Positions 5,897 through 23,860 of a DNA stretch of 39,332 bases are shown piece after piece. Source of the DNA: a virus; IMG/VR virus record IMGVR_UViG_3300027739_000001, positions 1 through 39,332 of that record; one strand, given 5' to 3'. Made by a program: the position numbers and the translations under genes. The notes beneath the pieces are model-generated. The model was not told the DNA's origin. It searched no databases and saw only the letters and a program-made list of their open reading frames with translations. Within the stretch, counting starts at the first letter, position 1, and each line of letters begins with the position of its first letter.

Positions 5897-5925
5897 ATAC
5901 TAAATTAATAACCAAAATCTATCAA
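5897..5925 (-). promoter_or_regulatory. Internal leftward promoter (TAGTAT type)
   Basis: Minus strand TTGATA (5925-5920), 17-bp spacer, TAGTAT (5902-5897), then GTATTCAAGGGAG leading into the next gene. Same design as the promoters at 8696, 11644 and 14421. The -35 lies within the end of the methyltransferase gene. Confidence 0.75.
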
Positions 5926-6633
5926 GAGGTTCCATGCGAGTTTAACCACTGCTGGAACTTGGCCATTCCCAAGGGCTGCAAGTCTGTCCACCCGATTGGC
6001 CACCCCATTAGCCACTCTACCCATGACGGGTTCAGAGCCATTGGCAGGGTCGTTGTCCCACCACGATCGTTCACTGTTGACGGTAGATCGTCTCCCTTCC
6101 AGTTCTCCGATTTCACTCTGGCACAAGTGTCCCTCTTTTGTGGCGTTGGCCAGTATCCAGATTCTTTTTCTTCGGTGACAAGCTCCGGCATCGTCTGCTC
6201 CCAAAACTCCCCATTTTGCATCATACCCCAGTTGGGCCAAGTCTCCGAGAACGGTTCCAAGTCCCCTAGAAGTGAGCATTGGTGAGTTTTCCACAAGGAC
6301 GAAACTGGGTCGTACCTCGCCAATGATGCGGGCCATCTCCCCCCAGAGTCCAGACCTTGCCCCCGATAATCCTGCTCCTTTTCCGGCGACTGAAATATCT
6401 TGGCAGGGGAATCCTCCTGTGACGATATCAATTTTTCCTCTCCATGGATTTCCGTCGAAGGTACAAACATCGTCCCAGATAGGGAATTTAGGTAGGATTC
6501 CGTCAGACTGCCTTTGCAATAAAACTCGGCGTGGGTAATCTTCGATTTCAACGGCGCACACGGTTCTCCACCCGTGCAACAAACTACCGAGGATTCCTCC
6601 CCCGGCTCCTGCAAATAATGCCAACTCATTCAA
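5905..6633 (-). CDS. DNA cytosine-5 methyltransferase
   Basis: A compact phage-type C5 methyltransferase of about 242 residues from TTG 6633 (MNELALFAGAGGG). Motif I FAGAGGG (about 7-13) binds AdoMet. Motif IV GGFPCQDIS holds the catalytic Cys77. Motif VI is ENS (115-117), motif VIII HRRKRIWIL, and motif X ALGNGQVP is near the end. The target-recognition region is very short. The TTG overlaps the previous stop (TTGA), a pattern repeated at three other genes here; ATG 6660 is an alternative without a ribosome-binding site. It methylates phage or host DNA, probably for protection from restriction. A second long ORF overlaps it in another frame from 6629. Confidence 0.88.
   Translation of the reverse strand: MNELALFAGAGGGILGSLLHGWRTVCAVEIEDYPRRVLLQRQSDGILPKFPIWDDVCTFDGNPWRGKIDIVTGGFPCQDISVAGKGAGLSGARSGLWGEMARIIGEVRPSFVLVENSPMLTSRGLGTVLGDLAQLGYDAKWGVLGADDAGACHRRKRIWILANATKEGHLCQSEIGELEGRRSTVNSERSWWDNDPANGSEPVMGRVANGVANRVDRLAALGNGQVPAVVKLAWNLLIDFGY
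5922..6629 (-). CDS. Overlapping-frame ORF inside the methyltransferase gene (WVEWLMGWP type)
   Basis: 235 residues in a different frame of the same strand as the C5 methyltransferase. ATG 6629 has GGGGAG at good spacing (8 bases), better than for the TTG four bases upstream. The product has SLWKTHQCSLLGDLEPFSETWPNWG-like and SGYWPTP segments and ends with WVEWLMGWPIGWTDLQPL. I recall this pattern from phage proteins annotated as methyltransferase-related or hypothetical. If both frames are used, over 700 bases are dual-coding. Alternatively the similarity seen in other phages is an echo of the conserved methyltransferase frame. Confidence 0.45.
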   Translation of the reverse strand: MSWHYLQEPGEESSVVCCTGGEPCAPLKSKITHAEFYCKGSLTESYLNSLSGTMFVPSTEIHGEEKLISSQEDSPAKIFQSPEKEQDYRGQGLDSGGRWPASLARYDPVSSLWKTHQCSLLGDLEPFSETWPNWGMMQNGEFWEQTMPELVTEEKESGYWPTPQKRDTCARVKSENWKGDDLPSTVNDRGGTTTLPMALNPSWVEWLMGWPIGWTDLQPLGMAKFQQWLNSHGTS

Positions 6634-7874
6634 TTTACTCCCCCTGTTTTCTCTTTCCATTTATCATCTTTCAAAATATCTTGTAATATTTCTTCTGCTT
6701 TCTCTCTTGAGAATCCGTGATACCATACGTATCTCTTTCCCATGTAACACAAATTAATACTCCACTTTGGGCCACTCTTGGATATCACAGGAGGTCTAAG
6801 AGGTTTAAAATTCTTTTGAATCTCTTTAATCTCGATTCTAAAGTCCTTGTATATGATGATTCCTTTACCGGCGTTATCCTTGAAAAAGTTTCTAACCAGT
6901 CCTGTTAATTCACTAGCCTGAGCATAATTCATCTTAACGCAGTTGACGTGTAAGGCCGATTTTTTAGGATTAGGCTTCACATCATAGGGTATAATCTCAA
7001 AAACTGGTTTTTCTTTTTTAGGCTTTTGGGGCTTGACAATCTTTTCTTTTTTAGGCTTTGCAAGTCTTGTATACCGTTCAAGCTCATAGGCTTTGCGTTT
7101 AGCCTTTATTTCTTCCGGTGTAAAGGTCTTAGGTCTTCCTGGTGACTTTTTAGGCATCTTCTCTTTCGGTGTCTTTTGAATCTTGACTAAGTTTCTCACA
7201 TCTACCTTATGACCTAGATACTCCCAATCACCGATCTTGCAAAGATGTTGAATAATATCATCCGGTAGATGGTAAAGTTTAGCCACGTCACGCCGAGTTG
7301 CCTGTACACCGTCAATATAAATCCTTCCGCAGCCACGTCTAATCTCTTCTTTCCGAATGACCCAAGTCAAAAGATTCTTGAGTTTTGCAATTTTATTTTC
7401 TTTCCAATTTCTTGTGTAGTCTGCCCTGGTTAATTTAGGTCTTGACTCTTTTCTGATTCTTGCACGTTCAAGAGTCTCTAATCGTCTAACCTCTGCTTCA
7501 TGTGCTTCTCTTTCATCTCTCTTGGCTCTTTCATTTTCCCATGTTTCACACTTTAAATGGTATCCATCCATGTCAATATCCCATTTAAAGTCAAGATACC
7601 GAATCGCTCCATGGTAAACTTGATTAGAAAAAGTATGATACTTCACGCCAAGAATGGAAGCCATTTCTTTCCCGGGTACAACTCGACCTTGATAAATCAC
7701 ATCCGGACATTCAAAAAATCGCCAATAGTATTTATATGTTTCAAGTTTATACCCAATCCAATGATCACAGAACCACTTAGGCATCTTATATGGTGTCGAT
7801 CCAAGGACACTAAACTGTCGATCCTCAGTAATCTTGAGCCATTTAGGTCTTGCGTCTAGTCCCCAATTACTCAT
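6630..7874 (-). CDS. Putative DNA-binding protein with AP2-like C-terminus
   Basis: 414 residues, very basic. An N-terminal helix-turn-helix-like segment lies around VPGKEMASILGVKYHTFSN (about 65-85), followed by a long charged helix (ENERAKRDEREAHEAEVRRL). A second HTH-like segment is ATRRDVAKLYHLPDDIIQHL (about 190-210). An AT-hook-like SPGRPK motif comes next, then a Lys/Pro linker. The C-terminal 45 residues (KWSINLCYMGKRYVWYHGFSREKAEE) resemble an AP2 or integrase-arm DNA-binding fold. No nuclease motif was seen. It lies between two methyltransferase-like genes and could guide or regulate DNA modification, or be a transcription factor. Family uncertain. Confidence 0.6.
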   Translation of the reverse strand: MSNWGLDARPKWLKITEDRQFSVLGSTPYKMPKWFCDHWIGYKLETYKYYWRFFECPDVIYQGRVVPGKEMASILGVKYHTFSNQVYHGAIRYLDFKWDIDMDGYHLKCETWENERAKRDEREAHEAEVRRLETLERARIRKESRPKLTRADYTRNWKENKIAKLKNLLTWVIRKEEIRRGCGRIYIDGVQATRRDVAKLYHLPDDIIQHLCKIGDWEYLGHKVDVRNLVKIQKTPKEKMPKKSPGRPKTFTPEEIKAKRKAYELERYTRLAKPKKEKIVKPQKPKKEKPVFEIIPYDVKPNPKKSALHVNCVKMNYAQASELTGLVRNFFKDNAGKGIIIYKDFRIEIKEIQKNFKPLRPPVISKSGPKWSINLCYMGKRYVWYHGFSREKAEEILQDILKDDKWKEKTGGVN

Positions 7875-8488
7875 TTATTCACCTCTTTAAAAGAGTTCGC
7901 AAAACCTTGACTACATAGCGACCTAAAATCAGCATCGGTATTGATATGGTCTTTAGCCCAAGAAAACTCGGGGATTAAATTAATGGCAGATTTATGGAAA
8001 AATGCTAGTGCTGGTTTTTTCCTACCCGGTCTTGTGTAAAGTTTTTCATTTTTTTGGACAGAATCCCATTTTTTAAATAATGGCTCCGGCATGGTAAAAT
8101 CCCCCCATAGGGCTGTTTTTTTAGTCCATGGGCTGCCATACTGCCAAGGTTGATAAATTGCCCTAGGATTTCCTAAAAAATCTTTAAGTCTACCATTGGC
8201 CGGATTCTCCAATACCCACCAAACAGGTTTTGACTCTTTAATAATCCTTAGACAATGATTTACAAGAAACATGCCAATATCAAGATCCCCTGTCTTATGG
8301 AACCCTGAAGCAGTCGAGAACTCAGTACACACCGGGTTTGCTATTATTCCGTGGATTGGCTTATCGGGGGAGTAATTTTCCACCCCTATGTCTTTCCCGA
8401 TTTTGATAACCTCATAATTCTGGTCTAAAGAATAGGGCCGTGAATCTGATCCAATATCAGCACATAAATGGAGTATTGTTTTTTTCAT
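7871..8488 (-). CDS. C5-methyltransferase-like protein without obvious target domain
   Basis: 205 residues. The N-terminus LHLCADIGSDSRPY replaces motif I. ANPVCTEFS carries the PC catalytic pair (Cys54), and VLENPANGRL (94-100) matches motif VI. PWQYGSPWTKKTALWGDF follows, a signature of a group of phage proteins related to Dcm. The usual motif X is not evident. It may be an active base methyltransferase of unusual specificity or another base-modifying enzyme. It is coupled to both neighbours by ATGA-type overlaps and has GGAGATGG ahead of the ATG. Confidence 0.7.
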   Translation of the reverse strand: MKKTILHLCADIGSDSRPYSLDQNYEVIKIGKDIGVENYSPDKPIHGIIANPVCTEFSTASGFHKTGDLDIGMFLVNHCLRIIKESKPVWWVLENPANGRLKDFLGNPRAIYQPWQYGSPWTKKTALWGDFTMPEPLFKKWDSVQKNEKLYTRPGRKKPALAFFHKSAINLIPEFSWAKDHINTDADFRSLCSQGFANSFKEVNK

Positions 8489-9103: not shown

Positions 9104-9399
9104 TATCGTTTACCTCCATGCCGTACTTCCCGGCTTTTATTTTTAAGCATCTTTTTAAATACCGCATCGTCAATATCCCACTTACGATAGGCGCAATAAT
9201 CAAGGACTCTGATAATCACATCGGCCAACTCTTCTACGGCTTTTGATTCATCATAGACCGCTTTTCTTTCTTCTTCCACGAACTCTGAAACCTCGGAATG
9301 GATAAGAGCAGCTATCTCCATTGGATTACGCTCTTGCTCCCACCATCCCTTCGATACCGATATTTGATGGGCTTGAAAGCCTAGACTGTTAAGACTCAA
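9100..9399 (-). CDS. MazG-like nucleotide pyrophosphohydrolase
   Basis: 99 residues. IHSEVSEFVEEER (about 33-45) and VEELADVIIRVLDYC (about 55-69) are the two acidic helices (ExxE and ExxD type) that bind Mg in all-alpha NTP pyrophosphatases of the MazG/dUTPase-like superfamily. Such enzymes hydrolyse nucleoside triphosphates to monophosphates; in phages they are thought to adjust nucleotide pools or alarmone signalling. It starts at TTG 9399 overlapping the previous stop (TTGA), with GGGGGA ahead. Substrate unknown. Confidence 0.8.
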   Translation of the reverse strand: MSLNSLGFQAHQISVSKGWWEQERNPMEIAALIHSEVSEFVEEERKAVYDESKAVEELADVIIRVLDYCAYRKWDIDDAVFKKMLKNKSREVRHGGKRY

Positions 9400-11624
9400 A
9401 ATAATTCCCCCTGTTTTTTTTCTTCAATTAAAGTTGATAGATTAATTTTTGCCTGATTGAAATATGACTCTTTCAATTCAAATCCAATGCCCCTCCTTCC
9501 CATTTTACATGATTGATACACTTCTGATCCGATCCCCATGAATGGTGTTAATACCGTGTCTCCTGGATTAGTATAAAGGAAAACAAGCCGTTGAATCACA
9601 CCGATTTGAAGAGGGCATAAATGTTTTTCGTCTTCTTCTTCTCTAGCCATTCTAAAGTTTAAAGTATCTCCCTGGTCAATATCCATCCAAATGGGGCTTG
9701 CGTATTTCTGCCACATTTCCACATCAAAAACTCTTGACATCTCGATTGACTTTTGATCATCGGTCAAGTCTTTATCGGCGATTGCATTAACCGCTTCGTT
9801 GTAATTTCCATAATGCCAAACTGGATCCGACCGTTCTCCATCCTTGCGGAATACTAGAATGGTATCGGGAATCCCTACACGACTCATGGTTGAATCTTTT
9901 CTAATCTGCTTATGGAGTAGTCCAAGAGCTTTTGTCCTTTGCATGGCCACTACTGGATCTTTCCATATTGTTACCCGGGAGTGATAAATAAAACCTTCTT
10001 CTTCAAAAACTTCTCTAATCATTCCTGAAAAATCACGTATCCCAATATGACCATGACGACCTTTCTGAGTAGGTAAATCCATGCAATGGACTGCCACATT
10101 TCTCCCTGGTTTAATAACCCGGAATAATTCTTTAACTAAAAACTTGAATTGATTGATAAAGTCATCCTGATCTTTGCAATTCCCCATGTCCTCAACATGG
10201 CTTGAATAGGTAAAAAGGTCAGCGAAGGGGGGACTAAAAACCGAGAACCCTACCGAGTCATTGGGTACATCCTGGATCAATCTAACACAGTCTCCCCTGC
10301 GGATATGAAACATATCATTGGTCACGTCTTCGATGTCATAGTCTCCGGTGGTCATTTGACTTTTATTTAGTGTTGCATTGACAGCATCGCTCATTTGCTT
10401 TTGCATTTCCTTGAACTTCCTTTGTTTTTCTTGAACCGCTGAAATGACATTTGTCATTGTATCGGTGGTGATTAAATGCACCTTGACGGAATGAAGTTGC
10501 CCGAATCGGTAGGATCTTCGGATAGACTGATAAAGCCCCTCAAAACTAAAATCTAAGGATGCAAAAACTTGGATATGGCAATTCTGATAATTTAAACCAA
10601 ACTGGGCTATCTTTGATTTAGTAATTAGAACTCTAAAGTCATTATGAGCGAATCCGAGTAGCTTATCTTTCTTGAATTCAGGAGTATCATCCCCTCGGAC
10701 TTCCACGGAATCGGGGATCAGTTTCCTTAAAATATCGCCCTCTTCATTTTGTTTAATCCAAACAATGACTTGTTCTTTTGTGGAGTTGGCAAGTTCCGCA
10801 GCCATGGTCAATCTTTCTTCTTTAGTCCGGCGTAGTTCTTGATTAAATCCAGTGGCATTTACCGCCGTATCATTGAATAATTGACCGTCACCTTTTGACT
10901 CGGTTTCAATCTTGTGTTCAATCATTTCCAATGGTGGTAAATCGTATCCATCCATGGGAAATCCAATCTCACGAGGATTATTGAGCATGATAGCCCATCC
11001 AGAAACAAACTCCCAAAAATGCTTAATAGCATGACCTTTAATCCGCCATTCTCCAGTGTCTCCAGCATCATGGACAAAATACATGGCAAGCATCTCAGCT
11101 CTTGACATGACGTTTAAGAACTCGGCATGGTTCCCAATTTCCTCAGGATCATTTGGTGAAGGTGTGGCAGTACAAGCCAATTTATATGAGGTAAACTCGA
11201 ATAGATCGACAATCTTCTTTTTAGTCGCTCCATCGAAGTTTTTTAGAATACTTGACTCATCCAAAACTATCCCGGCATACTTTGAACAATCGAGGTTATC
11301 AATCTGTTCATAGTTTGTTATGGTGATCCCATTTAGTGGGATATCCCATTTATCAGCTTCCTCCGTAGTTTGTCCGACCACTGCCAAAGGTGCAAGGATC
11401 AAGACTTCCTTTCCGGTATGCCGATGGACCCTGTGAGCCCATTCCAACTGCATAAACGTCTTTCCAAGACCAGTATCAGCAAAAACAGCATACCTTCCAG
11501 CTATCAAAGCTCTCAAAACTATAAACTTTTGAAATGGAAATAGTTTAGGATTTAATTCAGTCGGTTCAAAACCACTAGGCTTAACAGTTCTAAGCTTCTC
11601 CTTTAAAAAATCATCATACTCCAT
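9396..11624 (-). CDS. SNF2-type helicase fused to DNA N4/N6 methyltransferase
   Basis: 742 residues in two parts. Residues about 25-410 are a superfamily 2, SNF2-like ATPase: motif I DTGLGKT (50-56), motif II DESS (122-125), motif III CTATPSPND, and motifs V/VI GLNYQN and QSIRRSYRFGQ (366-376). Residues about 430-742 are an amino-methyltransferase with catalytic SPPF (464-467) and the AdoMet motif TPFMGIGSEVYQ near the C-terminus, so motif IV precedes motif I as in the beta class. This fusion is known from phages and probably couples translocation on DNA to modification. It starts at ATG 11624 behind AAGGGAG and its own promoter. Confidence 0.88.
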   Translation of the reverse strand: MEYDDFLKEKLRTVKPSGFEPTELNPKLFPFQKFIVLRALIAGRYAVFADTGLGKTFMQLEWAHRVHRHTGKEVLILAPLAVVGQTTEEADKWDIPLNGITITNYEQIDNLDCSKYAGIVLDESSILKNFDGATKKKIVDLFEFTSYKLACTATPSPNDPEEIGNHAEFLNVMSRAEMLAMYFVHDAGDTGEWRIKGHAIKHFWEFVSGWAIMLNNPREIGFPMDGYDLPPLEMIEHKIETESKGDGQLFNDTAVNATGFNQELRRTKEERLTMAAELANSTKEQVIVWIKQNEEGDILRKLIPDSVEVRGDDTPEFKKDKLLGFAHNDFRVLITKSKIAQFGLNYQNCHIQVFASLDFSFEGLYQSIRRSYRFGQLHSVKVHLITTDTMTNVISAVQEKQRKFKEMQKQMSDAVNATLNKSQMTTGDYDIEDVTNDMFHIRRGDCVRLIQDVPNDSVGFSVFSPPFADLFTYSSHVEDMGNCKDQDDFINQFKFLVKELFRVIKPGRNVAVHCMDLPTQKGRHGHIGIRDFSGMIREVFEEEGFIYHSRVTIWKDPVVAMQRTKALGLLHKQIRKDSTMSRVGIPDTILVFRKDGERSDPVWHYGNYNEAVNAIADKDLTDDQKSIEMSRVFDVEMWQKYASPIWMDIDQGDTLNFRMAREEEDEKHLCPLQIGVIQRLVFLYTNPGDTVLTPFMGIGSEVYQSCKMGRRGIGFELKESYFNQAKINLSTLIEEKKQGELF

Positions 11625-20855: not shown

Positions 20856-22115
20856 ATGGATAAAGAAACTCTTAAAAAACTTGTTGACGATCACGCATCT
20901 ACCGTATCTCGGTTCAATACTCAAAAAGCATACTTCAACGGTACACACGTGGCAATCAATCAACCTGCTCCTAAATCATCACCTGATAACAGGGTATCGG
21001 TTCCTTTTGCCCGTAGAGCCGTGGCCATGATCAAGGGTTACATGAGCAAGCCCGGGTCAATCAAGTACACCGGGGATTTTTACGAGAACACCTTAAAAGA
21101 GATCTATGAATACAATGACGAACAATTAACCACGTCAAATGAGTTGGAAGATGCTTTGATTTATGGTCGGTGCTTTGAACTCCATTGGATGGGTGAAAAT
21201 GGAATGAAGAACTTTTACCCAATCCCGGCGAGTCAATCAATCCCAATTTACAATAGCGAATTGAGACCTAAACTAATCGGCTTCATTTGGGTTAGAACTG
21301 TGGACGGTGTACAGACTGCCACTGTCTACGATGACACGTATTATCAGGTATGGACTTTTGATAAGGACTGGACACAAGGTGATGAACTACCCCACGGATA
21401 CGGTAAAGTGCCTGTCAATATCGGTATGATTGACCGAGATGGAAGAAACTTTTTTGACCATGTTCTCGGTCTAATTGACCTTTATGACAAACTAATATCA
21501 GAGGATCTCGGGAACGAATTGCAACGCCATTCAAATGCCATCCTAGCCATGGCTGAAAGACTTGACACCGAGACCGCCGATGATAATGGGCGTACAATGG
21601 TTGAAAGAATGAAAGAACTAGGTTTGATTGACGGCTTAGGCGATGGGGATGTAAAGTCAAAACTTGCTTATATTACCAAAGATCAACCTAGTGACTTTAT
21701 ATCATTCTCAGCTCAAACGATTGAGCGTCTAATTTATGAGATGCTAATGATCGTCAATCCAAATGACGATACCTTTGCCGGATCTTCCGGTATCGCTCAA
21801 GCCTGGAAAACATTTGGAATGGAGCTTGCGTGTTCATCCATTGAAGCGTACTTTCTCCGGTTCCTTTACAACCGTATCTACATGATTGGTGGAATATCTG
21901 AGAGTGTAGGAGATGACACTGAAGGAACAACCGAAGTGCAAATATCAATGAGTCGGAATACTCCGGTAAACCTAGTCGAGCTTGCAGATATTGCATCTAA
22001 GCTAAAGGGACTGATAAGCGATGATTCCTTGATCGGTCTTTTCCCGGTCGAGGTTGTAGCAGATAAAGAACAAGAGCTTGAGAGACTTGGATCCGGGATG
22101 GAGCTTGAGGGATGA
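20856..22115 (+). CDS. Portal protein (SPP1 Gp6-like)
   Basis: 419 residues. The pattern of an SPP1-type portal is visible: an N-terminal clip/wing region (NRVSVPFARRAVAMIKGYMSKPG), the YGRCFELHWMGENG strand, a central GYGKVPVN and a later crown helix region (ERLIYEMLMIVNPNDDTFAGSSGIAQAW). The dodecameric portal forms the DNA channel at one capsid vertex and docks the terminase. No ribosome-binding site lies before the ATG, unlike neighbours. The end overlaps the MuF gene by an ATGA overlap. Confidence 0.85.
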   Translation: MDKETLKKLVDDHASTVSRFNTQKAYFNGTHVAINQPAPKSSPDNRVSVPFARRAVAMIKGYMSKPGSIKYTGDFYENTLKEIYEYNDEQLTTSNELEDALIYGRCFELHWMGENGMKNFYPIPASQSIPIYNSELRPKLIGFIWVRTVDGVQTATVYDDTYYQVWTFDKDWTQGDELPHGYGKVPVNIGMIDRDGRNFFDHVLGLIDLYDKLISEDLGNELQRHSNAILAMAERLDTETADDNGRTMVERMKELGLIDGLGDGDVKSKLAYITKDQPSDFISFSAQTIERLIYEMLMIVNPNDDTFAGSSGIAQAWKTFGMELACSSIEAYFLRFLYNRIYMIGGISESVGDDTEGTTEVQISMSRNTPVNLVELADIASKLKGLISDDSLIGLFPVEVVADKEQELERLGSGMELEG

Positions 22116-23860
22116 CCTTTGAGCAGTACCTAGCCGGGGGAAGAAAAGCTGCCGATAGGGATTTAATCAGCGTTGAAAAAGAACTTCAAGCCATGTACAT
22201 TGACGCCTATAAACAAGCATCGAGTGACCTTGAAAAGTTTTTAGCTAAAGGCTTTTCACCTGAGGAAGTCCGAAAGTATGGCAGATTAACTCAGCTTATC
22301 GAAGGGATAAAAAAGGAATACAAAAAGCTATCAGGTAAAGCACTTGATACAACCTTGACCGCTGGAGCTGATACATTTATCGAGTCCTTTAAGTACCTTG
22401 AGTTTGCCCTAGATGCCACTGAGGGAGTAGCCGTAGGTTTTGGAATGCCCCCTGTGGACGTGGTTAGACTCTCAGTCAACTCAGACCATGCCGGGCTATC
22501 GGTAGAAGAAATATACGGGAAAAATGTTATCTCTGAGTTTAGTAAGATCCAGGGAACTATTACCCGGGGTATTATCCAAGGCCAAGGATATAAAAAGATG
22601 GCAGGATTACTCAAGGATGATTTCGCCGGAGGATATAAAAACGCTCTACGGGTGATTAGAACAGAGAACACTAGGCTATGGACTGAAGGACAGCTTGAGT
22701 CAATCGCCTACGGTGAGGATCTCGGGATCAAGTTTCGTACTCGGTGGATTGCTTCACTTGACCAAAGGACAAGGGAATCACACGCAATGCTTGACGGTGA
22801 ATACGCCGATGAGAATGGATTATTCTGGATTGGTAGTGACTCAGCTAAAGGGCCGGGGTTATTCGGTATCGCCTCCGAGGATATAAACTGCTTCCCTGGT
22901 CACATGATCCCGGTAGCAGTTGATATTGAAAAACTTTACAAAAGAGAATATTCGGGAAACTTAATCGGGATTAAAACATCCTTCGGCAGTTATTTTGAAG
23001 TTACGGTTAATCACCCTATACTTACCGACAAAGGATGGGTTCCCTCTGGCATCCTTAATAAAGGAAGCAATATAATCTCCATGAGCCTGGGTAAGAAACC
23101 TGGAATAGGTTGCAAGATAAAGAACGGTCCATCCACGTTCGCAGAGGTATATAATCTTTCTTCTATCAAAAGCTCTATCCATAATGTTCATGGAACCGTT
23201 ATACAATTCCACGGCGATGGGTCCAATGGAGAAGTCGAGATTAAAACGGTCGATAGGTGTCTGCCTGTCAAGAACAATTCCAGCATTCTTCACAAATTGA
23301 AACAGTTCATCTTCACCGCTCCCAACATATTGCATAGTTTTTTTTCTAGTAATAGCCCTAGCAACAAGTTCATCCTTTTCTCTGGTCATCCCTCTAACAG
23401 CATCATGCGCAGCCTTAGAAAGAGCTTGTCTTTCCTCGGGAGTAGATTTGGCCATCCTAGCGAACATCCCCTCGCTTCTATTCCTTTGAGTAATTCCATT
23501 ATTTCTCAAGATTCTAACAATAACAGATCTACTGACATTAAATCTGGAAGCAATAGACTTAACGGACTCCCCATCGGTGTATTCTTTGATGAAGTGGTCG
23601 ATATTCAAATCAAACCCTATTCTGGACATGTGTACAACCTCCAAACCTCAAGCGGTATGTATGGATTATATAACAACAATGGCATTGTGTCAATTACTCA
23701 TAACTGCCGTTGTGCAATCACTCAAGAGGTTGAAGGGTTCCCGGCTGAGGAACGTAGGATCAAGGGTGAAGGTGTGGTCAAGTATACCAATTTCACCGAT
23801 TGGGCTGAATCTAAAGGGTGGACACCCGAGAAAGGCTGGCCGAAAGTTGAAAAAGTTTGA
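22112..23860 (+). CDS. MuF-like head morphogenesis protein containing an intein
   Basis: 582 residues in one open frame. Residues 1-259 and 532-582 make a SPP1 gp7/MuF-like minor head protein: RVIRTENTRLWTEGQ, then TRWIASLDQRTRESHAMLDGE, then the joined EDIN/CRCAITQEV, a conserved C-terminal motif. Residues 260-531 interrupt this motif exactly before its Cys and have intein features (separate entry). The spliced protein would have 310 residues. MuF proteins bind the portal and enter the procapsid. The start overlaps the portal stop. The middle of the frame (about 23080-23600) encodes Ser/Asn-rich sequence because its antisense strand carries another gene. Confidence 0.88.
   Translation: MTFEQYLAGGRKAADRDLISVEKELQAMYIDAYKQASSDLEKFLAKGFSPEEVRKYGRLTQLIEGIKKEYKKLSGKALDTTLTAGADTFIESFKYLEFALDATEGVAVGFGMPPVDVVRLSVNSDHAGLSVEEIYGKNVISEFSKIQGTITRGIIQGQGYKKMAGLLKDDFAGGYKNALRVIRTENTRLWTEGQLESIAYGEDLGIKFRTRWIASLDQRTRESHAMLDGEYADENGLFWIGSDSAKGPGLFGIASEDINCFPGHMIPVAVDIEKLYKREYSGNLIGIKTSFGSYFEVTVNHPILTDKGWVPSGILNKGSNIISMSLGKKPGIGCKIKNGPSTFAEVYNLSSIKSSIHNVHGTVIQFHGDGSNGEVEIKTVDRCLPVKNNSSILHKLKQFIFTAPNILHSFFSSNSPSNKFILFSGHPSNSIMRSLRKSLSFLGSRFGHPSEHPLASIPLSNSIISQDSNNNRSTDIKSGSNRLNGLPIGVFFDEVVDIQIKPYSGHVYNLQTSSGMYGLYNNNGIVSITHNCRCAITQEVEGFPAEERRIKGEGVVKYTNFTDWAESKGWTPEKGWPKVEKV
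22889..23704 (+). mobile_element. Intein in the MuF gene
   Basis: 272 residues starting at Cys260 (CFPGHM, block A) after extein Asn259. Block B is TVNHPIL (about 38-44 of the intein) in GSYFEVTVNHPILTDKGWV. Block F-like is GHVYNLQTSSG, and block G ends SITHN before extein Cys532 (His-Asn-Cys). All residues for standard splicing are present. There is no LAGLIDADG or HNH domain in the sense frame; the linker between the splicing halves is the complement of an antisense gene. Insertion at the conserved NC of MuF is a functionally critical site, as is usual for inteins. Confidence 0.88.
22961..23629 (-). CDS. Homing-endonuclease-like gene antisense to the intein
   Basis: 222 residues from ATG 23629, which has GGAGG eight bases upstream. 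A helix-turn-helix lies at about 21-46 (ESVKSIASRFNVSRSVIVRIL), followed by a charged linker. A Vsr-like/EDxHD-type nuclease domain follows: GEDELF (Glu106, Glu108), RFNLDFSIGPIAVEL (Asp132, Glu141), then YLCERGWTVLYL. The usual His of the motif is not evident. This nuclease class is known beside split inteins. It is the only leftward gene inside the rightward structural operon and lies wholly within the intein. I infer that it cuts intein-less MuF alleles to spread the intein. Confidence 0.8.
   Translation of the reverse strand: MSRIGFDLNIDHFIKEYTDGESVKSIASRFNVSRSVIVRILRNNGITQRNRSEGMFARMAKSTPEERQALSKAAHDAVRGMTREKDELVARAITRKKTMQYVGSGEDELFQFVKNAGIVLDRQTPIDRFNLDFSIGPIAVELYNGSMNIMDRAFDRRKIIYLCERGWTVLYLATYSRFLTQAHGDYIASFIKDARGNPSFVGKYRVINRNFKITAEGCFNPD

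Follow-up and report, generated by a model that had tools for sequence, protein, structure and literature searches.

The minus strand of IMG/VR virus record IMGVR_UViG_3300027739_000001 (positions 1-39,332; this whole 39,332-nucleotide stretch is referred to as the window) carries a locus that very probably encodes a two-chain C5 methyltransferase of the M.EcoHK31I kind, with two nearly completely overlapping genes that start 4 bases apart (Table 1). Coding is conserved in both frames, constraint is handed over from the first frame (alpha) to the second (beta) past motif VIII, and the motifs on the two predicted chains are complementary.

The beta ATG (6629) lies 4 bases downstream of the alpha TTG (6633), in the +1 frame, and the beta ORF falls entirely within the alpha ORF, sharing 708 of its 729 bases. 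An in-frame ATG at 6660 is also open for the alpha frame. The TTGA at the alpha start overlaps the stop codon of the upstream gene (6630-7874), and the purine run listed in Table 1 is separated from the alpha TTG by 4 nt and from the beta ATG by 8 nt, so a single ribosome-binding site could serve both starts. A preliminary description of this DNA had claimed two long frames starting four bases apart, a ribosome-binding site common to them and about 700 dual-coding bases. The starts are as described, the purine run is placed where it may act for both, and dual coding of the shared bases is supported by several sequence tests. The elements SETWPNWG, YWPTP and WVEWLMGWPIGWTDL, which the same description assigned to the second product, are all present in the beta translation.

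Table 1. Features of the overlapping methyltransferase locus in the window
Feature	Position	Strand	Basis
Alpha chain (C5-cytosine methyltransferase frame), TTG start, 242 aa	5905..6633	(-)	PF00145, phrog_363
Beta chain (second frame, +1), ATG start, 235 codons/aa	5922..6629	(-)	phrog_1008, openness, start conservation
Purine run AGGGGGAG, likely shared ribosome-binding site	6638..6645	(-)	read from sequence
Motif VIII region of alpha (RKRIWI); past it, the constrained frame is beta	6154..6171	(-)	
Segment from motif VIII to the C-terminal block, with YWPTP (beta) at its beginning; predicted unfolded in alpha	6034..6150	(-)	alpha pLDDT, codon-position shares
Beta motif-IX-like segment LNPSWVEWLMGWPIGWTDL, overlapped in the alpha frame by the beginning of the C-terminal block	5979..6035	(-)	
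Alpha motif X (LGNGQVP)	5953..5973	(-)	

Alpha matches PF00145 in Pfam (E 8e-30, residues 4-167) and phrog_363 in PHROG (E 8e-64). It has motifs I, IV and VIII, which mark the catalytic domain of a C5-cytosine DNA methyltransferase; the recognition region and motif IX that usually accompany them on a single chain were not found in it. An alpha profile run against PDB sequences matched residues 15-179 only of M.HhaI, and the predicted alpha model aligns with M.HhaI (2uyc) over 199 of 327 residues (Z 22.3). The model is confident at residues 1-165 and 211-240, and mostly has pLDDT <50 across residues 170-210.

The second frame is open far beyond chance. Relatives were fetched with the methyltransferase alignment alone, the second frame being left unused, and the window together with 76 of 80 relatives (4 duplicates dropped) gave 77 genes. 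All 77 keep the +1 frame open across at least 85% of the gene length, versus none of 46 control single-frame C5 methyltransferases; these counts, like those for start codons, come from related sequences that are not independent, and are strong but not simple probabilities. Two sets of 80 loci each likewise overlap in many contigs and are not independent. The control family is P0001, the second methyltransferase of Vibrio phage 1.091.O, which was used after Papez gp46, tried as a single-frame control, gave one viral locus only. The median longest open fraction is 0.98 for the +1 frame versus 0.19, 0.36, 0.42 and 0.32 in the other four. When synonymous codons were permuted with the alpha protein kept, a second frame as open as that of the window gene arose in about 1 of 1000 permutations (p 0.001). 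The same permutation reaches p<0.05 in 74 of the 77 genes, the three that fall short being L073 and L088, both GC-rich, and L044, in which alpha is truncated at 107 codons.

The second start is equally well kept, being ATG in 97 of 100 complete genes and GTG in the other 3. Codon 2 of the methyltransferase, when it encodes Asn, is AAT in 96 of 96 cases (5 of 99 having been dropped as near-duplicates), versus 354 of the 882 Asn codons at other positions of these genes; AAC at this position would abolish the second start. Stops interrupt the alpha frame in 3 of 80 relatives. L044 and L128, which lie on the same contig, have one stop within the catalytic part of alpha, and in L145 and L513 alpha ends after motif VIII; beta stays open in all four. 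L023 was omitted from the alignments: a switch of frames in the first ~20 codons (L023:2439-2523), either a natural indel or a sequence error, takes an ORF begun at the usual alpha start into the beta frame.

A chance ORF was ruled out by the openness contrast (77/77 vs 0/46), the conservation of the start, the codon-position reversal and the conservation of synonymous codons. It is also scarcely conceivable that the second frame is no more than an echo passively produced by the methyltransferase one. Mean z for similarity between relatives, from 300 sampled of 875 eligible pairs, is 6.8 for the +1 frame and 3.9, 4.6, 4.5 and 1.4 for the +2, -0, -1 and -2 frames; this measure alone is not decisive, because shared descent makes the other frames, too, more alike than permuted codons, as an echo would have it. 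The openness, the start codon, the codon-position reversal and the control family all contradict an echo. What the preliminary description had named as fatal to dual coding was antisense or shifted echoes with neither a stand-alone member nor purifying selection; no stand-alone member was found, but selection on the second frame is strong.

Codon positions show which frame is constrained where. Alpha position 3 is beta position 2, and alpha position 1 is beta position 3. Mismatch shares at alpha positions 1/2/3 were taken over 4605 pairs from 97 of 99 genes (L042 and L148 were dropped, their region boundaries not being found). The part up to motif VIII has.26/.14/.60, the region between that motif and the C-terminal block.58/.22/.20, and the block itself.44/.15/.41. 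With each gene used once, position 3 exceeds position 1 in 48 of 48 pairs in the catalytic part, position 1 exceeds position 3 past motif VIII in 31 of 36 pairs (3 reverse, 2 ties), and the C-terminus is balanced at 22 to 18. The corresponding region past motif VIII in the P0001 control family has shares of.22/.14/.64. Relatives in bacterial genomes repeat the hand-over, with.25/.14/.61, then.54/.17/.30, then.44/.17/.39 along the gene (62 of 80 fetched loci used). Synonymous codons are conserved above expectation in every testable 10-codon bin (1.14-2.58), with peaks at the start, at codons 101-150 and at codons 201-220, where the value at the alpha codons is 2.5 times expectation; most control bins are near 1.

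Constraint acts on the alpha frame up to motif VIII, on the beta frame thereafter and on both at the C-terminus. The stretch constrained in beta is the one in which the target recognition domain of other C5 enzymes lies. The codon-position shares and the synonymous-codon conservation together make beta a coding frame throughout, most strongly past motif VIII; constraint on its N-terminal half is modest. Between motif VIII and its C-terminal block alpha is a linker, since the constraint there is that of the beta frame and the alpha model is mostly of low confidence.

A passage of constraint from frame 0 to +1 just past motif VIII is also what would be expected if a programmed +1 frameshift after this motif produced one chain with motifs I-VIII, the recognition region and motif IX. 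Fused single-frame relatives do exist (26 of 80 loci), and the Cluster O phage paper left frameshift, hop or two products open (PMC4351075). Such a frameshift is nevertheless improbable here: the beta frame is open from 4 bases past the alpha start, upstream of any slip site, the beta start codon is preserved, synonymous codons are conserved across alpha codons 1-70, and motif X, needed to complete the fold, remains downstream in the alpha frame. Two products are favoured in the nested form, because an open, start-conserved beta frame begins upstream of the hand-over.

The two frames divide the C5 motifs between them. Motif X is on alpha and a motif-IX-like segment on beta in 94 of 101 nested pairs, and motif IX is on alpha in none. 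The exceptions are four beta motif IX segments missed by the pattern, two alpha motif X segments missed (one alpha being cut by a stop, the other having a GNRQVP variant) and L145. In most pairs that were read, both frames jointly hold one motif set, and beta is therefore probably the other subunit of the same enzyme. The preliminary description had linked the beta elements to separately annotated phage proteins; a second subunit is the likelier reading of the beta product.

Beta matches phrog_1008 (PHROG; E 9e-21) and has no match in Pfam. A beta profile found no C5 enzyme among PDB sequences, and neither did four split second genes. Its AlphaFold model is poor (mean pLDDT 55.9, pTM 0.22), with no confident fold for beta alone. 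The terms motif IX and recognition region consequently rest on motif resemblance, position, PHROG and hhalign, and the segment between motifs VIII and IX is probably the target recognition region, judged by that position. Profile-profile comparison (hhalign) of 95 betas with the four split second genes gave a probability of 99.4 (E 1.3e-21). The family phrog_1008 also matches ORF30 of phage K1G, the Rani internal gene and the second split-methyltransferase genes of Alma (gp82), Hammer and Ryadel, as well as gp46, the single-chain methyltransferase of phage Papez, in its in-frame C-terminal part (5e-30); phrog_363 matches gp46 over almost its full length.

It is quite unlikely, more so than the frameshift, that beta is a separate phage protein, such as a regulator or an anti-restriction factor, that merely overlaps the methyltransferase. 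Its lack of a Pfam family, an N-terminal half without a known homologue outside these genes, and records that annotate beta only, as a hypothetical protein, would fit such a protein. Against this, a C5 methyltransferase catalytic half accompanies every clear beta homologue found, which is nested within it, split off from it or fused with it. The C-terminal half of beta shows homology to split second genes and to the in-frame part of a single-chain enzyme, and alpha is without motif IX throughout the 101 pairs. To the question, posed in the preliminary description, of whether homologues are stand-alone genes or always overlap a methyltransferase, the answer is divided: none was found without a methyltransferase partner, but separate-gene and in-frame fused relatives exist.

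Beta as the second subunit also fits into a series of gene arrangements. By pattern, 80 loci were classed as 24 split, 26 fused, 26 'neither' (pattern misses), 2 ambiguous and 2 without the motif-IX pattern. Reading by eye of six 'neither' loci showed L379, L386, L394, L399 and L416 to be split and L417 to be cut at a contig end. In split genes the catalytic frame stops 5-10 codons past motif VIII (23 of 24; 57 codons in L367). Encoded in the +1 frame are PTP modules, a motif-IX segment of the EWMMG type and a motif X of the GN type. L361 and L367 are close relatives, one fused in one frame and the other split. In L145 and L513, where alpha ends just past motif VIII, beta carries motifs IX and X in its own frame, and this form is intermediate between nested and split. 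Among named phages, split genes were examined in Ryadel, Alma, Hammer and Jumbo. In genome contigs, 174 of 228 pattern matches encode a protein related to the window beta. At the sensitivity used, a relative of the Salmonella phage S9-5 gene was present in 4 of 5426 E. coli genomes and 8 of 72,556 plasmid records.

Two other methyltransferase subfamilies with nested second frames were compared by match coordinates, using 78 of 80 K1G-type, 60 of 80 Rani-type and 46 of 47 control loci; these coordinates replaced a motif filter and duplicate removal that had cost 45 of 80 and 34 of 80 loci. All 78 K1G-type loci have an open +1 frame, and their shares past motif VIII are mixed (.35/.23/.42), with no clean reversal; of the Rani-type loci 50 of 60 have it open, with shares of.65/.21/.14.

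In the proposed two-chain enzyme, ribosomes from the one binding site would start at either TTG 6633 or ATG 6629, giving alpha or beta. Alpha would provide motifs I-VIII, which form the SAM-binding and catalytic core, and also motif X, connected to that core by the unconstrained linker, and beta would provide the small-domain segment of ordinary C5 enzymes, probably target recognition plus motif IX. The two chains may then assemble as a heterodimer, a single enzyme that would methylate the DNA of the phage, most likely as protection from host restriction. Translation of both chains, their association and these roles are predicted from the sequence features above.

It is reasonably likely that such 'relay' genes form a large overlooked class in phages and prophages, with catalysis encoded in one frame and recognition in the +1 frame. 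Specificity could then drift or be swapped in its own frame where the other frame encodes only a linker, the recognition half and motif X would change from one chain to another along the series of nested, split and fused forms, and annotating one frame only would have hidden the second subunit. Among 12 phage records, with frames worked out from coordinates, the annotated gene is in the alpha frame in 9 and in the beta frame in 3; no record has both. The beta frame is annotated and alpha is not at L010:2489-2989, L004:2501-3229 and L007:392-652, where the names on beta-only annotations are DNA-cytosine methyltransferase or hypothetical protein. Many records named 'DNA cytosine methyltransferase' or 'hypothetical protein' may thus each describe half an enzyme, and, if the two-chain reading is true, alpha expressed alone would give an inactive or unspecific one. 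Convincing long same-strand overlaps are rare; here there is family-wide evidence, an internal frame switch and a control.

Several other ORFs in the window are unusual. A second weak C5-methylase-like ORF lies two genes upstream (7871-8488, minus strand), matching phrog_757 (5e-22) and PF00145 below cut-off (0.0097). The 742-aa ORF at 9396-11624 (minus strand) joins an N6/N4 DNA methylase (PF01555, 1.8e-17) to a weak SNF2/helicase match (PF00176, 2.2e-5; PF00271, 1.8e-4; both below cut-off). The plus strand at 22112-23860 encodes a Mu F-like head protein (PF04233, 5.9e-12) with an intein-like insert, for which PF14890 (4e-4) and TIGR01445 (4e-4) are both below their cut-offs. Antisense in this insert is a 227-aa ORF (22961-23644, minus strand; HTH_23, 2.6e-5; DUF559-like, 0.012) that is perhaps a homing endonuclease antisense within the intein.

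Among open-licence papers, no description of the nested phage form as a two-chain enzyme was found, and passages of PMC3091744, PMC6070908, PMC10885494 and PMC4168068 hold nothing bearing on it. A related published question concerns the Cluster O mycobacteriophages, in which the catalytic and C-terminal halves lie in adjacent genes (Corndog gp7/gp6); the paper on them noticed second-frame coding potential in the overlap, and reports no splicing by RT-PCR and products unseen by mass spectrometry (PMC4351075). The present locus bears on whether those genes yield two products or use a frameshift, hop or intron. In Cluster O-like split genes alpha stops shortly past motif VIII and motif X is on the second gene, whereas the window genes are fully nested. 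M.AquI (CYCGRG) consists of two polypeptides with the break after motif VIII, inside the variable region (PMC3404938). Its second chain has both motif IX and motif X, an arrangement on tandem genes that was not found in the window, where alpha holds motif X and one frame lies inside the other; of the forms seen here, L145, L513 and the split phage genes resemble it most.

Nested second ORFs within C5 methyltransferase genes, with both ORFs annotated and the second matched by phrog_1008, are found in Escherichia phage K1G (ORF31/ORF30) and Paenibacillus phage Rani (gp50/gp51, 'g50 Internal gene'). These belong to other methyltransferase subfamilies, and their second ORFs start 88 and 202 bases inside the first, respectively. 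M.EcoHK31I, which recognises YGGCCR, reportedly has its small chain encoded within the large-chain gene in a different frame, and the window shares this layout (5922-6629 inside 5905-6633), although its second ORF starts only 4 bases in and covers 708 of 729 bases. The motif division is also alike. In the published description, the larger chain has motifs I-VIII and X, and motif IX is on a smaller second polypeptide (PMC3404938). For M.EcoHK31I the same source assigns the recognition domain to the larger chain, as a prediction that is not clearly defining, whereas in the window family the corresponding region is constrained in beta. This discrepancy is either a real difference between the enzymes or a reason to re-examine the published prediction.
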